From Nostoc sp. UHCC 0302 (GTDB lineage: Bacteria; Cyanobacteriota; Cyanobacteriia; Cyanobacteriales; Nostocaceae), in contig NZ_CP151100.1 in NCBI RefSeq assembly GCF_038096175.1, forward strand, positions 248,001 through 312,000: a DNA stretch of 64,000 nucleotides, written 5' to 3'. The notes beneath the pieces were generated by a model, which had not been told where the DNA came from, did not search any database, and was given only the letters and a program-made list of their open reading frames with translations. Below are positions 55,844-61,530 of the stretch, in pieces; position 1 is the stretch's first letter; each line of letters begins with the position of its first letter. A program made the translations under genes and the position numbers.

Positions 55844-57974
55844 ATGATACTAAGTGCTTTTACAACTAACGCTAATCCTCAACAGCTACAAGCTATTCAG
55901 ACTACTGAAGGTGCTTTGTTAATCATTGCTGGCCCTGGTTCAGGTAAAACTTTCACCCTAGTTGAGCGGATTGTTTACTTAATTACACAAAAAGGAGTAG
56001 CACCTGAGAATCTGCTGGTTGTTACCTTCACCGACAAAGCAGCCCAAGAACTGACAACCCGAATTTCTAATCGTCTCCTTGAACTTGGTGTACGCTTCAA
56101 CCTCAACGAGATGTACTTGGGAACCTTTCACTCAGTCTGTTTACGCTGGCTGGATGAGCATCGGGAGTTCACCCGCCTCAAGCGCAACTTCATGATGATG
56201 GATCAGTTCGACCAGCAGTATTTTCTTTACCGCCTTTCGGAATTTCAAGCCATCCCTGATATTGAGCTTGTCATTGGCAGCCCTAAGCAATCTGCATGGG
56301 ACAAGTCCGAGAAGCTGATGAAATGGATTAATACTGTTAGCGAAGAAGCTCTAAACTACCAGACGCTCATTAATGCTCCTGAACCAGAGGTAAGGGCATT
56401 GGGTCATTGCTATGCCCTCTACCAAAAACACCTGGAGGAAGAAAACGCGATTGATTTTTCTACCATCCAGTATGAAGCCCTCAAGCTCCTCAAGCAAAAC
56501 CCGCAGATTCTTACAGAACTCCGAGACAAAATTAAATACCTGATGGTGGATGAGTACCAGGATACTAACACCATTCAAGAATTAATTTTGAATTGTCTTG
56601 CAGGCGATCGCCCAAACCTTTGTGTAGTTGGTGATGATGACCAGGGCTTATACCGCTTTAGAGGAGCCAGCATCCGCAACATTTTACAGTTTAAAGATCA
56701 ATTCCCTAATGGAGACTGCAAACAGGTATATCTAACTACTAATTATCGTTCCCACCCAGATATTATCGACTTCTACAACCGTTGGATGAATGAGCAAGAG
56801 TGGAAGGATAACGGCAAAGAATTTCGGTTTCAAAAATTAATTAAAGCAAAGGAAGACAAATTATTTTCTGAAGTCCCGTGTGTGGTGAAACTTTCAGGTA
56901 AAACTCAACAGGCATGGCATCAGGAAGTTTTAGTGTTTTTGCACACCCTCAAAGACAAAGGAAATTTAACAGACTGGAACCAAGTTGCTTTTTTATTTCG
57001 CTCTGTTAAGAATGATAAAGTCGTTGCTCTCTCACAGTTCCTAGAGAAAAACGGCATTAACGTTTACTCCCCGCGCTCTAATCAGTTTTTTGAGCGGGAA
57101 GAAATTCGCTTAATCATTGGGGCGTTAATTTTCCTCTTCCCCCAGTACCCCAATATCCGCAAGTGGAATGATGATGCTCACCTCGAAATTTGGGATTATT
57201 ACGATAATCAATGCTTCCAGCCATTTGCTGATCAAATTCGCCAGCCTGAGAATGCAGATTTGTGGAAGTGGGTAAGAGCGATCGCTAAAACGCATTTGAC
57301 CCTTAACCAAAATGCTGACTATGCTTTCTCAGGTCTGTTTTACCGATTGCTACAGTTTCCTTTATTTAGTCGTTAGGGACTTCCAACTAAAAAAATATAC
57401 AATCGCTTTGGTGAGTAGGGAAGGCAGGGGAAGAATCTAAAATGATATTTGCTCCCACCCATTGAATAATTTATTTTCTGGAAGTCCCTTACTTAGATGA
57501 AAACTTACTGCAACAAAAGGGCATTCAAAACAGCCGCTCTATGCGGAATTTAGCTATTTTCTCGCAGCTGCTCGATAAGTTTGAATATCTCTACAACATT
57601 GATGTATTAACTTCTGCTTACTTAGAGAAAAACCTCAAGGATTTGTTTAACCAGTTTTTCAGGTTCTTGGAGGATGGAGGCATTGATGAGTATGAGGACA
57701 AGTCAGAATATGCCCCTAGCGGCTGTGTGTCATTCCTGACGATTCACCAGTCAAAAGGGCTAGAGTTCCCAGTGGTGATTACAGGTTCACTGGAGGCTGT
57801 ACCCCGCAAACAGTATACCCAATTGGATGAGTTACTAGAAAATAATTACCTGCTCCGCCCACCCTTTGAACCACTAGAGTTAATTAAGTTTTTTGACTTT
57901 CGCCGCTTGTTTTATACAGCATTTTCTCGTACCCAAAACATACTAATTCTGAGTTGTTTAGAGAAGGAAGGTAA
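55844..57974 (+). pseudogene. UvrD/Rep-type helicase, broken by a MITE and cut by IS1380
   Basis: An N-terminal part to 57375 reads all motifs up to the middle: AGPGSGKTFTLVERI (Walker A), DEYQDTN (Walker B), GDDDQGLYRFRGA and TNYRSHPDIIDFYN. A 113-base MITE (57376-57488) brings in a stop. Removing it with one TTA joins LFSR to YLDENLLQQKG in frame, then LTIHQSKGLEFPVVI (motif V) and RRLFYTAFSRTQNILIL (motif VI). IS1380 cuts the gene at 57975. Everything after LEKEGN is insertion-sequence text. It was a complete SF1 helicase of the ATP-dependent 3'-5' group; it cannot now be made whole. Confidence 0.87.
57376..57488. mobile_element. MITE (113 bp) in the helicase gene
   Basis: Inverted ends GGGACTTCCA and TGGAAGTCCC, with TTA on both sides (57373-57375 and 57489-57491) as a likely target duplication. 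No coding capacity. The interior is AT-rich. Confidence 0.8.
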
Positions 57975-59809
57975 CCCGGATTTCTCACAAAGCCGGAGAA
58001 AAGAGGAGTCAAAAACTGCCAAAATATCTATTGCACATGAATTCCAGCAGTTTTAAGCATGACCCCTCAGAAAACAGATTGTATACCGGAACAGTTCAAA
58101 TTTGAACAAGTTAAATCATGTCCAGTCGTAGTTAATTTCAAGGGTGAGAGGGTAACATCAGATGCAGGATTGACTTTAATTGCGGAGCTAGACCGAAAAA
58201 GAGAAATTACATCGCGAGTAGCAAGATGTTTTAAAGATTACCGAGATTCCAATAGAATTGACCATTCAGTAGAAAGCCTAATCACGCAGAGAATATATGG
58301 TTTGATAATGGGTTATGAAGACTTAAACGACCACGAGGAACTGCGTCACGATCCAATGTTTATCCTGGCGCTAGGGAAAATAATGGGTTCAGAAAAAGAA
58401 CTACCAGTCCTAGCAGGTAAAAGCACTTTAAATCGTATCGAACACTGTCCAGAAACTGTTGAATCAAGAGCATCAAGTCGATATCATCGCATTGGACATG
58501 ATGCAGAAGCTATAGAGAAATTATTAGTTGAAATATTTTTAGAATCCTACTCCAAAGCACCACGACAGATAATTTTAGACTTGGACGTGACTGATGATTT
58601 AGTGCATGGCAATCAAGAAGAAGTGTTTTTTAACCCTTATTATAGAGGATATTGTTATGCTCCACTTTATATTTTCTGCGGTAAACATTTAATTGCAGCA
58701 AAGCTTCGTGCTTCTAATGTAGATCCAGCGTCGGGTGCATTATCAGAATTGCAACGAGTAATAAAACTAATACGTTTACGTTGGGATAATGTGAAAATTA
58801 TTGTACGTGGAGATAGTGCGTATTCGAGAGAAGATATTATGAGTTGGTGTGAATCTCAAGTTGGAGTAGATTATGTCTTTGGGTTAGCCCAGAATAGTCG
58901 GTTAATTCAACTATCCCAACCAACCCAATACCGGGCTTATCTTGAATATTCGCAAAAACTGGAAACTGTAGTAGAGTTTTTTGAAACTTTATTTACTCCG
59001 TCAGATGACTTGAAAAAACAAGCAGCAGCCTTTGTTGATAACTCAGTTTGGTATTGTTCGCTTGATTATAAAACTTTAAAATCTTGGAGCCGTAATCGCC
59101 GTGTTGTCTCAAAAATTGAGTATAGTAAGTCAGGGGTAAGTACTCGTTTTGTTGTCACTTCACTCCCTACTAAATTAGTGCCTCCAGGACGACTTTATAC
59201 CCAGAAGTATTGCCCACGAGGTGATATGGAGAATCGTTTAAAAGAACAGAAGTTATCACTAAAAAGTGATAGAACTAGTACTCATACATTTGCTGGAAAT
59301 CAACTACGTCTGTGGTTTTCTTCTGTTGCTTATATTTTGATAAACGCTCTCCGAGAGCAATGTTTAACAACAAGCGAACTCAAAAATGCTACTGTTGGAA
59401 CTGTTCGTACAAAGTTACTGAAATTGGGAGCCGTTATTACTGTTAATAGCCGATATATTTTAATCGCTATTAGTAGAGATTGTCCATACAAGAATATTTT
59501 TGCAACAGCTTACAGCTATTTATCTCGGCTAAACTGTTCTGGTTGATTTTCAGCTAATTGGAATTATAGTTATTAGCTTTAACTTGGGTAGATTTCATTG
59601 ATTTAACCCTAGCTTTAGGCTGTCTATTTATCATTTTCAATAATCTTTGCTTTAGTATTTATTGTTTAGAATGTATCATATTTGTCTTTGTAGTTTCGGT
59701 TTACACGTTGTCATAATCTGTTGTTGATTATAGTTTAGTGTTGTATAAAATAATTTACTTTAAGTTTTACTCATCTCAATGATTTTTTCTCACTTGTGAG
59801 AAATCCGGG
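57975..59809 (+). mobile_element. IS1380-family insertion sequence (1835 bp)
   Basis: Perfect inverted ends CCCGGATTTCTCACAA (57975-57990) and its complement (59794-59809). The bases outside differ (GTAA left, TTGA right), so there is no target duplication. The left side is the end of a helicase gene and the right side the tail of a ParM gene, which suggests deletion or recombination next to the element. Confidence 0.88.
58059..59546 (+). CDS. IS1380-family transposase
   Basis: A 495-residue DDE transposase (Tnp_DDE_1): SDAGLTLIAELDRKREITS at the N-terminus, LDLDVTDDLVHGNQEEVFF (first Asp), IIVRGDSAYSREDIMSWCE (second Asp) and RGDMENRLKEQK (Glu). Complete and probably active. Its ATG follows the helicase-frame stop by two bases, an accident of the fusion, not an operon. 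Confidence 0.95.
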   Translation: MTPQKTDCIPEQFKFEQVKSCPVVVNFKGERVTSDAGLTLIAELDRKREITSRVARCFKDYRDSNRIDHSVESLITQRIYGLIMGYEDLNDHEELRHDPMFILALGKIMGSEKELPVLAGKSTLNRIEHCPETVESRASSRYHRIGHDAEAIEKLLVEIFLESYSKAPRQIILDLDVTDDLVHGNQEEVFFNPYYRGYCYAPLYIFCGKHLIAAKLRASNVDPASGALSELQRVIKLIRLRWDNVKIIVRGDSAYSREDIMSWCESQVGVDYVFGLAQNSRLIQLSQPTQYRAYLEYSQKLETVVEFFETLFTPSDDLKKQAAAFVDNSVWYCSLDYKTLKSWSRNRRVVSKIEYSKSGVSTRFVVTSLPTKLVPPGRLYTQKYCPRGDMENRLKEQKLSLKSDRTSTHTFAGNQLRLWFSSVAYILINALREQCLTTSELKNATVGTVRTKLLKLGAVITVNSRYILIAISRDCPYKNIFATAYSYLSRLNCSG

Positions 59810-59811
59810 TT

Positions 59812-59997
59812 GATGCCAAGCACACGGGAGATGAGATTTGGGCGATTGGTGGAGGCTGCCTCTTACCTGGATTTAGGAAGTTATTAGAGAAAAACGGGTT
59901 CAAAATCCGTGACAATCCGGTGGAAGCCAATGCGAATGGACTCTTAGAAATGGCAAAAGCCATTCTCAGCAAGAATCCAGTAACCGCCTCTAAGTAA
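59812..59997 (+). pseudogene. parM: ParM-like actin, C-terminal remnant
   Basis: Sixty-one codons continue directly from the IS1380 end: DAKHTGDEIWAIGGGCLLPG then FRKLLEKNGFKIRDNPVEAN and ANGLLEMAKAIL. This is the last part of a plasmid segregation actin, with the GGG..LLPG nucleotide-binding loop and NPVEANA.G end. All of subdomains upstream are gone. The likely ParR gene follows at 60105. Confidence 0.8.
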
Positions 59998-60104: not shown

Positions 60105-60410
60105 ATGACTGAGAAACTTGACTTGCCCGCAGAAAAGGTTCGGATCAAAGATAGCTACCGCGAACGCATATTTGCAGAATCACAGCAGCTAGGTAAAAGT
60201 TATCTGGAGACGCTTTACTTTATCATTGATTGCTATTTTGCCTTCAAAAGGGGTGCATTCCCCATGCAACAAGTGCTTACGCAACAACCATCTTTGACGC
60301 CAATGACTACTGAGCAAAACCAGATGACAGAGCCTGCTCCACAAACATCTAAACAAGAAAAACAAGACAATATCGAAGGCGAAACATTCACCCTTGATTT
60401 TAATTTGTAA
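60105..60410 (+). CDS. parR: ParR-like partner of ParM
   Basis: A 101-residue protein. The N-terminal half (MTEKLDLPAEKVRIKDSYRE with SYLETLYFIIDCYFAFKRGA) looks like a small DNA-binding ribbon-helix-helix-type adaptor. The C-terminal half is disordered and ends in an acidic/aromatic tail (GETFTLDFNL), as expected for a ParR that contacts ParM filaments. The call rests on position just after the ParM remnant and on this layout, not on a strong sequence motif. Confidence 0.6.
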   Translation: MTEKLDLPAEKVRIKDSYRERIFAESQQLGKSYLETLYFIIDCYFAFKRGAFPMQQVLTQQPSLTPMTTEQNQMTEPAPQTSKQEKQDNIEGETFTLDFNL

Positions 60411-60533: not shown

Positions 60534-60752
60534 ATGAGTACAGCAGAAATTTGTTGGTGTGTCTCAGGAAGAATCGAGCAGGGTGAGTTAGTTACTGATT
60601 TCTGTGAAGCAATAAAAATTAAGAGCGGTCAAGAACTAGCTGCACTTGCACATCAGGGAATATGGAAGTGCATTCCTTCTACTGATTCTACAGGGGATGT
60701 TACAGGCGTTTCCTTGGTAGAAAAACTCGAGCAGATTGCACCCTCTTATTAA
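60534..60752 (+). CDS. Hypothetical small protein
   Basis: Encodes 72 residues (MSTAEICWCVSGRIEQGELV). An AGAGGTAATTGA stretch precedes the start. No family recognised. Confidence 0.5.
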   Translation: MSTAEICWCVSGRIEQGELVTDFCEAIKIKSGQELAALAHQGIWKCIPSTDSTGDVTGVSLVEKLEQIAPSY

Positions 60753-60996: not shown

Positions 60997-61293
60997 TCAG
61001 GCGGCTAAGTCTCTCAGTTTCTCTTCTATTTTCTTGTCTAGTATGTCGTCTAGTCTCTTTTCTACTGCTTCTAGAATTACCTCCAGAGAAAGTGAAGACT
61101 GATTGGAAGACGGTTCTTCTTGCTGCCAACCTACAGAAGACTTTAAGGCATTGATAACAAAACTGTTAACACTGGTGTTTTGTCTAGCTGCCTCCGCCTT
61201 TACTGCCTCATATAGTTCTCTATAGCCGTCCAGACGCAAATTTAACTGTAGTCTCTCTTTTTCACTCATAGCACTAGCCTTGTAACTAGACAT
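60997..61293 (-). CDS. Ribbon-helix-helix-type DNA-binding protein
   Basis: Encodes 98 residues, or 90 from the second Met (MSEKERLQLNLRLDGYRELY). The pattern RLQLNLRLDGYRELYEAVKA then ARQNTSVNSFVINALKSSV matches an RHH (Arc/HicB-like) domain: a beta strand followed by two helices. The C-terminal half is a Leu/Glu-rich helix (VILEAVEKRLDDILDKKIEE) suited to oligomerisation. A CTAGACA repeat array covers its start and promoter, so autoregulation or centromere binding is likely. Confidence 0.75.
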   Translation of the reverse strand: MSSYKASAMSEKERLQLNLRLDGYRELYEAVKAEAARQNTSVNSFVINALKSSVGWQQEEPSSNQSSLSLEVILEAVEKRLDDILDKKIEEKLRDLAA

Positions 61294-61432
61294 AATGCTA
61301 GCACTGATTGGCTATTGAAAACTACCTATAAGCTAGACAACTTGCTAGACAAAATTTGGATCAGAAATACTCATCATACACTAGACAATTGCGCTAGACA
61401 CTGATACTAGACAAGTGATATTATATGTCTAG
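61286..61432. repeat. CTAGACA heptad array
   Basis: Six direct copies of CTAGACA start at 61286, 61333, 61345, 61381, 61394 and 61407, with one inverted copy (TGTCTAG) at 61426. The spacings are 47, 12, 36, 13, 13 and 19 bases, mostly multiples of about 12. More copies in the opposite sense occur inside the adjoining gene (61035, 61181). RHH proteins such as omega of pSM19035 bind 7-base heptads of this sort. Confidence 0.8.
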
Positions 61433-61530
61433 TGGTGGTGAAAGACATTGTTCACTAAAACTAATCAAAAGGGCGATCGCTCACCCTAGGAAAGTCTGCG
61501 ATCACCCCTTCACCAAAACCGAAAAAGGAA

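Follow-up and report, generated by a model that had tools for sequence, protein, structure and literature searches.

Phased CTAG sites before an Arc-like ribbon-helix-helix gene of Nostoc: a predicted operator with a possible part in plasmid maintenance

A small gene encoding an Arc-like ribbon-helix-helix (RHH) protein in Nostoc sp. UHCC 0302 is preceded by nine phased CTAG sites. The same pairing of gene and array recurs on other cyanobacterial plasmids, and for this reason the sites are very probably targets of the RHH protein. This comparative evidence strongly supports the array as the operator of the RHH gene, a reading put forward in an earlier note on this DNA. The locus as a whole is read, with somewhat better than even confidence, as an Arc-like autoregulator on a long array with a probable second job in plasmid keeping.

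The window is the whole stretch of 64,000 nucleotides that was analysed, bases 248001-312000 of C2, a contig of 383,299 bp. The host genome comprises 9.59 Mb over nine contigs, C2 among them. C2 is treated as a plasmid because it carries two full-length ParM genes (196939-197892 and 234710-235663) and two open ParA-like frames, the nearest of which (C2:232223-232987) lies about 76 kb from the RHH gene. The RHH protein has relatives encoded on plasmids and contigs of cyanobacteria.

The family is compact, and the predicted DNA sites of its RHH protein can be read from sequence alone. It also includes a natural Arg-to-Lys contrast that coincides with the absence of arrays. The titles and abstract openings of the literature searched, which included few subscription papers, describe no cyanobacterial RHH/partition or CTAGACA system, nor do those on RHH proteins with CTAG operators or on cyanobacterial plasmid segregation.

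The CTAG array and its gene in the window

The features of the locus are as follows.

61274..61432, no strand: phased CTAG array of nine sites, most with a TGT/ACA flank
61286..61292, plus strand: CTAGACA, exact copy
61333..61339, plus strand: CTAGACA, exact copy
61345..61351, plus strand: CTAGACA, exact copy
61381..61387, plus strand: CTAGACA, exact copy
61394..61400, plus strand: CTAGACA, exact copy
61407..61413, plus strand: CTAGACA, exact copy
61426..61432, minus strand: CTAGACA, inverted, exact copy
61470..61487, minus strand: terminator-like hairpin with a T-run after it, located between array and divergent gene
60997..61269, minus strand: RHH gene, 90 aa, with ATG 61269 chosen from relatives
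ATG 61293, minus strand: alternative start of the RHH gene, giving 98 aa
61035..61074, minus strand: three in-gene CTAG (61038, 61050, 61071), two of which encode LDDILDK
61181..61187, minus strand: in-gene CTAGACA, exact copy

The nine CTAG start at 61274, 61286, 61298, 61333, 61345, 61381, 61394, 61407 and 61429, at successive distances of 12, 12, 35, 12, 36, 13, 13 and 22 bp. Most spacings thus equal one, two or three steps of 12-13 bp. The seven CTAGACA copies reported earlier at 61286-61432 were recovered as exact copies (six on the plus strand and one inverted), as was their phasing near multiples of 12 bp. A count of the motif across the replicon had been named beforehand as a check on random occurrence, and it found the cluster to be unique on C2 and not random. 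The densest 200 bp of C2 hold nine CTAG and are those of the array; the best 200 bp elsewhere hold five. The longest phased run on C2 has nine members, against 2-4 in 20 dinucleotide shuffles, and the only phased run of at least four sites on C2 is the one at the RHH locus. CTAGACA occurs 37 times on C2, and nine of these copies fall inside 0.4 kb at the RHH locus.

The strict heptad was rejected as the unit of the array. It is not over-represented across the window (10 copies vs 7.3 expected, with 10 reached by 21 of 100 shuffles), and relatives conserve CTAG instead of CTAGACA. The conserved unit is CTAG, with TGT-CTAG-T/C as its best flank.

The start of the RHH gene is probably 61269, since this ATG (MSEKERLQLNLRLD) coincides with the start position in relatives. 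All nine CTAG then lie upstream, and the array stops just before the start codon. The overlap of the repeats with the start codon, as first described, therefore holds for ATG 61293 only and is lost with the preferred ATG 61269. The terminator-like hairpin is partly conserved in two relatives. A promoter scan gave four promoter-like sites vs 1.9 in shuffles, one of them (9/12) inside the array on the RHH strand; neither result is relied upon.

The RHH protein combines an Arc-like strand, RLQLNLRLD, with a C-terminal helix. It has the Arc-like feature of Q-x-N-x-R contact residues in the strand of a strand-helix-helix. An AlphaFold model of the monomer has helices at 17-29, 34-45 and 62-89 (mean pLDDT 72); the strand, which would need a dimer, is not formed in it. 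Foldseek with this model gave matches of E 0.45 or worse, with Arc chains among the first (E 0.75 or worse), a weak hint of Arc. Among PDB sequences, the profile matched AvtR (4hv0) best (E 4e-4), with Arc at E 0.02. In A1, an alignment of ten rows from similarity searches, the Arc-like PHROG 582 matches all ten rows (best E 4.5e-4) and PHROG 228 matches nine (best E 3.1e-5). The window protein falls short of the cut-off of every Pfam and NCBIfam model. PHROG 795, labelled 'partition protein ATPase', also matches nine of the ten rows (best E 2.7e-4); its label is doubtful because this 116-position profile fits an RHH protein, and it was not counted for partition.

The neighbouring segment holds a C-terminal ParM/StbA remnant of 64 aa at 59803-59994, with 80% identity to a Nostoc ParM, and the small partner gene of that remnant at 60105-60410; both follow an IS1380-type transposase gene. 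A small unknown ORF at 60534-60752 has a 93% identical copy at C2:236279-236494, beside a full-length ParM locus, so the segment has been duplicated on the plasmid. The N-terminal part of a UvrD-type helicase was found with Pfam at 55844-57376, and ORF 57541-58056 continues it by eye; 55844-58056 is probably a broken helicase gene, just before the IS1380-type transposase gene. The earlier view that parM had been lost nearby did not survive. The remnant is a truncated extra copy, and with two full-length, open parM genes elsewhere on C2 there is no missing function to replace. Partition called for by loss of parM was rejected on account of these two genes. Each is followed by a small partner gene, of 101 aa in one case and cut to 59 aa in the other.

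Arrays at the loci of relatives

Twenty-four RHH loci were compared, the window included. At least seven CTAG lie within 200 bp upstream of the RHH gene in 18 of them (range 7-13), against shuffle means of 1.2-3.0. At 17 of these 18 loci the count is reached by at most 1 of 2000 shuffles, and that of L013 is reached by 19 of 2000 (p 0.0095). The six loci without a full array have five (L020), four (L012), three (L059), two (L009) or one upstream CTAG (L014 and L018); L009 has the same strand as the array loci, yet lacks a full array. The named array carriers span three orders (Nostocales, Oscillatoriales and Coleofasciculales).

Spacing was measured in 16 less redundant loci with 134 neighbour spacings. 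Of these, 76 are 10-13 bp, with a mean of 11.5 bp for the class, and 28 are 20-26 bp. Flanks at 139 sites of 14 loci favour T (0.71), G (0.58) and T (0.60) on the 5' side and T/C (0.92) on the 3' side, frequencies that are biased upward because each site was oriented to its better TGT side.

The sites are conserved as well as clustered. In Nostoc sp. MG11 the array matches that of the window in the positions of all nine CTAG, and 36 of 36 core bases are kept, vs 100 of 128 for the rest of the array (p 0.0005). The comparison with Anabaena azotica gives 32 of 36 and 91 of 128 (p 0.02). CTAG sites are kept while the spacers drift. These p values, like those of the upstream and in-gene tests, treat loci as independent despite kinship: L011 and L061 are apparently one locus, and L019, L060 and L062 are close relatives.

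Relatives of the protein at E 1e-8 were found in 28 of 387 related genomes, in a sporadic distribution. The protein search yielded 31 places, of which 30 loci were examined, and 11 of the 30 carry arrays. The reverse, array-first approach ran a four-site pattern on the same number of related genomes (387) and matched 17. Five of the 17 (G654, G553, G693, G060 and G109) have their match within or at an RHH gene; the other 12 show coding or tandem repeats or scattered sites, with no RHH-like ORF by eye. The G693 protein had been missed by the protein search. It was recognised by profile comparison (E 2.9e-6, 34 columns, probability 88%), and no Pfam model supports it. The pattern missed the window array because consecutive 10-13-bp steps join only three of its sites. 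G654 has a second CTAG array, of near-perfect 24-bp repeats (L096:1469-1704), about 0.85 kb from its RHH array. Among viral contigs, the protein scan found no RHH relative, and the array scan gave at least 14 matches, of which most among those listed are coding or tandem repeats by eye.

Phased runs of at least four sites were also located on whole replicons. Scytonema plasmid2 has two, one in the RHH gene and one directly preceding it. With Microcoleus CP146623 taken as a closed circle, all four of its phased runs are no more than about 1.2 kb away from the RHH gene; one run has 13 sites and one run precedes a Uma2 gene. The RHH gene of pMIC7113.06 is preceded by the only phased run of that plasmid, which has four sites; 2 of 100 shuffles give a run as long. 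In pOSC7112.03, scanned over the first 150,000 of its 150,927 bases, there are four runs. Two are no further than about 1 kb from the RHH gene, and the other two are at a distance of about 8 kb; one of the distant pair is an 11-bp repeat of six sites in front of a Uma2 gene.

No gene family besides the RHH gene is common to most of the loci compared. An ATPase-like protein recurs at six loci, and a small divergent gene is found at some Oscillatoriales loci. A conserved protein with a P-loop-like motif by eye (656 aa at L015:2721-4691) occurs at L015, L017, L019, L056, L058 and L077. Its distance from the RHH gene is about 3 kb or less at five of them and about 11 kb at the remaining one; one tblastn gave no C2 match for it. 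A long helical, coiled-coil-like tail is part of the RHH gene itself at L019, L060, L062 and L085, and a coiled-coil-like protein is encoded as a separate ORF after the RHH gene at L017 and L058.

The recognition strand and the Arg/Lys contrast

The strand of the RHH protein is strongly conserved. In A1, R6, Q8, L9, N10 and D14 are invariant and R12 is present in nine of the ten rows. In alignment A3 the entire R-x-Q-L-N-L-R-L-D is invariant, an outcome that in part reflects how A3 was made, since its nine relatives had been collected with the pattern R[ILV]QLN[LI]RLD. The excerpted source on Arc describes contacts to a TAGA box through Gln9, Asn11 and Arg13 (PMC12645479).

The residue at the third contact position divides the loci. 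With Arg, a phased run of at least four sites is present in 11 of 19 loci and absent in 8; with Lys, it is present in 0 of 11 (p 0.001, with kinship ignored and the Lys group largely one clade). The 30 loci of this comparison overlap the 24-locus upstream set. At the start codon of the 11 Lys loci lie two or three cores (CTAG, CTAC or GTAG) in 10-bp steps, either at -26, -16 and -6 or at -16 and -6. This sister RHH group (L240, L242-L246, L248-L252) has the strand QLNIKFD or QLNIKLD. Given the short start-codon operator of the sister clade, the array appears to be an expanded version of it.

CTAG sites inside coding sequence

CTAG sites are also present within RHH genes. Their number was compared in 21 genes with 3000 synonymous recodings, for which codon usage was taken from C2 and not from each host; 1.1 to 4.4 CTAG are expected per gene. 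The observed counts were reached by none of 3000 recodings in L008 (8 vs 1.6 expected), L013 (10 vs 3.0), L015 (14 vs 2.2) and L083 (15 vs 4.4). L059, L019, L057 and L056 also show an excess (p 0.004 to 0.013), and L014, which lacks an upstream array, a slight one (p 0.03-0.04). The remaining genes of the 21 show no excess by recoding. Permutation of each gene's own codons is a harder test. It leaves the excess in L008 (p 0.0007), L015 (p 0.0013), L019 (p 0.007) and L083 (p 0.008), and that of L013 is gone (p 0.55).

The copies that had been reported inside the window gene are present, at 61035-61041 and 61181-61187, but the excess of CTAG in this gene is not significant: four sites vs 1.4 expected by synonymous recoding (p 0.05), and p 0.29 with its own codons permuted.

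The in-gene sites of L008 and L083 occupy both frames that avoid a TAG stop. In L015, eleven sites separated by ten 12-bp steps encode an LDTK-type repeat. This array is also a plain 12/48-bp tandem repeat, and duplication alone could therefore explain its in-gene sites. In Scytonema HK-05, a C-terminal LDTK-type protein repeat is encoded by a 12-bp CTAGACA-type DNA repeat, and the protein would read the same repeat that encodes part of it. It has been considered that arrays running through the promoter into the coding sequence form a motor-less plasmid centromere that includes the binder's own gene; this is unlikely, at something like one chance in a handful.

Possible functions of the array

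Binding of the CTAG sites by the RHH protein is predicted with high confidence, and autoregulation of its own gene is likely, on the grounds of site conservation, clustering and the strand. The gene and array would form a self-contained plasmid module, an Arc-like RHH protein with phased sites before its own gene. Dimers would read CTAG through the Gln-x-Asn-x-Arg strand, one dimer per site, and a site spacing of about 11.5 bp, roughly one helical turn, would let adjacent dimers touch. We infer that neighbouring dimers cooperate on the array. The protein would coat about 160 bp in a single cooperative assembly, with the promoter beneath it and the RHH gene repressed. The second job would be plasmid keeping by a compact or tethered nucleoprotein, in the manner of the R388 StbA-stbDR complex, which has no need of its ATPase. 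It is considered probable within this joint reading because the array goes far beyond the 2-3 sites of the sister clade and, on some plasmids, enters the gene or recurs beside neighbouring genes.

Taken by itself, a centromere-like role of the array complex in maintenance is a conjecture that falls short of an even chance. Array length, the in-gene arrays and the small Microcoleus replicon CP146623 weigh for it. This replicon of 21.9 kb has both the array and the RHH gene, and none of the 15 ORFs of at least 150 aa listed for it has a ParA/ParM Pfam match; by tblastn it has no ParA match and a ParM match of only 83 residues at E 0.005. Weighing against it are the sporadic distribution of the family and the arrays at other promoters, which suit plain regulation equally well. 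A partition role would also be redundant on C2, where both full-length ParM genes and both ParA-like frames are present. Should the maintenance role hold, the locus would be a cyanobacterial inheritance module without a filament or ATPase of its own, and would show operator arrays embedded in the coding sequence of their own binder.

A plain autorepressor is the alternative that survives best, and its chance comes close to even. The array would then be a long operator for tight, cooperative and concentration-sensitive repression with no role in inheritance, and on some plasmids neighbouring genes would be repressed as well. The nine sites between the gene and its upstream neighbour, which reach the start codon region, are consistent with this. 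So are the extra arrays that CP146623, pOSC7112.03 and G654 carry in front of other genes in the neighbourhood of the RHH gene, and the ordinary 2-3-site operator at the same place in the sister clade. However, 7-13 CTAG per 200 bp upstream are seemingly beyond the needs of repression, and the coding-sequence arrays of L008, L015 and L083 exceed synonymous expectation.

The array could also be an orphan ParR/parC-like centromere, its RHH complex captured in trans by a plasmid ParM filament, which is improbable. The ParM genes of C2 each have their own small partner gene, no phased run of at least four sites lies near them, and CP146623 pairs its 13-site run with the lack of a ParA/ParM Pfam match given above. 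The layout of ParMRC is also absent, as the repeats are not upstream of parM and the RHH gene is not with a whole parM. Such capture would suit the ParM-like proteins encoded on C2, Scytonema plasmid2 and pMIC7113.06, and ParR is typically an RHH protein on 10-20-bp direct repeats in the excerpted source (PMC9426499).

A centromere of the pSM19035 omega/delta type with a ParA ATPase is very improbable. The comparison with omega heptads had been drawn in the earlier note, and the locus does share with omega an RHH protein and iterated sites at its own promoter, sometimes at several promoters; in pOSC7112.03 the RHH gene and a ParA gene are about 3 kb apart. Contiguous 7-bp repeats are absent, however, and the CTAG cores are 10-13 bp apart (about 11.5 bp on average). 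No ParA gene adjoins the array, the closest ParA-like frame being the distant one on C2. RHH-type ParBs contact ParA through the N-terminus, according to the excerpt consulted (PMC9499535); the RHH protein has about five residues ahead of its strand, hardly any N-terminal tail. The omega reading is unsupported on these three counts.

An iteron-type replication origin, also raised in the earlier note, is the most remote of the alternatives: intergenic direct repeats of about one helical turn and a Prim-Pol gene of CP146623, whose end, on the closed circle, is separated by about 1.7 kb from the nearest array and by 2.9 kb from the RHH gene, would fit it, but nothing at the window locus speaks in its favour, the array-associated protein is RHH, no Rep gene stands beside the repeats and no Rep or primase is among the nine window proteins scanned around them, no replication gene is common to most loci, and the GC skew of two small plasmids shows no clear change at the array.

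Comparison with known systems

Arc of phage P22 is not known to have the long C-terminal helix of the RHH protein. The two share the Gln-x-Asn-x-Arg strand, a TAGA-type core and, by prediction for the RHH protein, dimers in adjacent major grooves, as far as the excerpted source describes Arc (PMC12645479). In contrast to the many-site run found here, Arc places two dimers on a 21-bp operator, and it is a phage protein whereas the RHH protein is encoded by a plasmid gene. AvtR of the Acidianus filamentous virus (4hv0) is the best solved sequence match (E 4e-4), but two RHH-like units are matched per chain and the virus is an archaeal lipothrixvirus.

Partition systems with RHH proteins resemble the locus in part. 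The omega/delta/parS system of pSM19035 has an RHH protein with iterated sites over several promoters, and in the excerpt available these promoter sites double as centromere (PMC9499535). It differs in its contiguous 7-bp WATCACW, its ParA partner and its N-terminal ParA contact. ParR/parC likewise joins an RHH protein to direct repeats of 10-20 bp in the part of the source consulted (PMC9426499). However, parC usually lies before parM, whereas here the array lies before the RHH gene with no whole parM adjacent.

Two further stability proteins, KfrA of RA3 and StbA of R388, are not known to be RHH proteins. KfrA shares with the long-tailed relatives a DNA-binding domain and an alpha-helical coiled-coil tail, and plasmid stability needs its DNA binding, as stated in the excerpted source (PMC8124265). 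Unlike the locus described here, it is an accessory to an active ParAB-type system. In R388, the stbDRs are two sets of five 9-bp repeats, 2 nt apart, with an 11-bp period; they flank StbA's own promoter, and extra copies lie at other promoters. StbA gives plasmid stability without the ATPase StbB, again according to the portion of the source available (PMC3098194). The core sequence of the stbDRs (TTGCATCAT) is different, and StbA is encoded in the operon stbABC. In both systems the promoter of the binder's gene is surrounded by repeats of about 11 bp, with a mean of 11.5 bp here. By analogy, the RHH-array complex may work like R388 StbA, its nearest working model.
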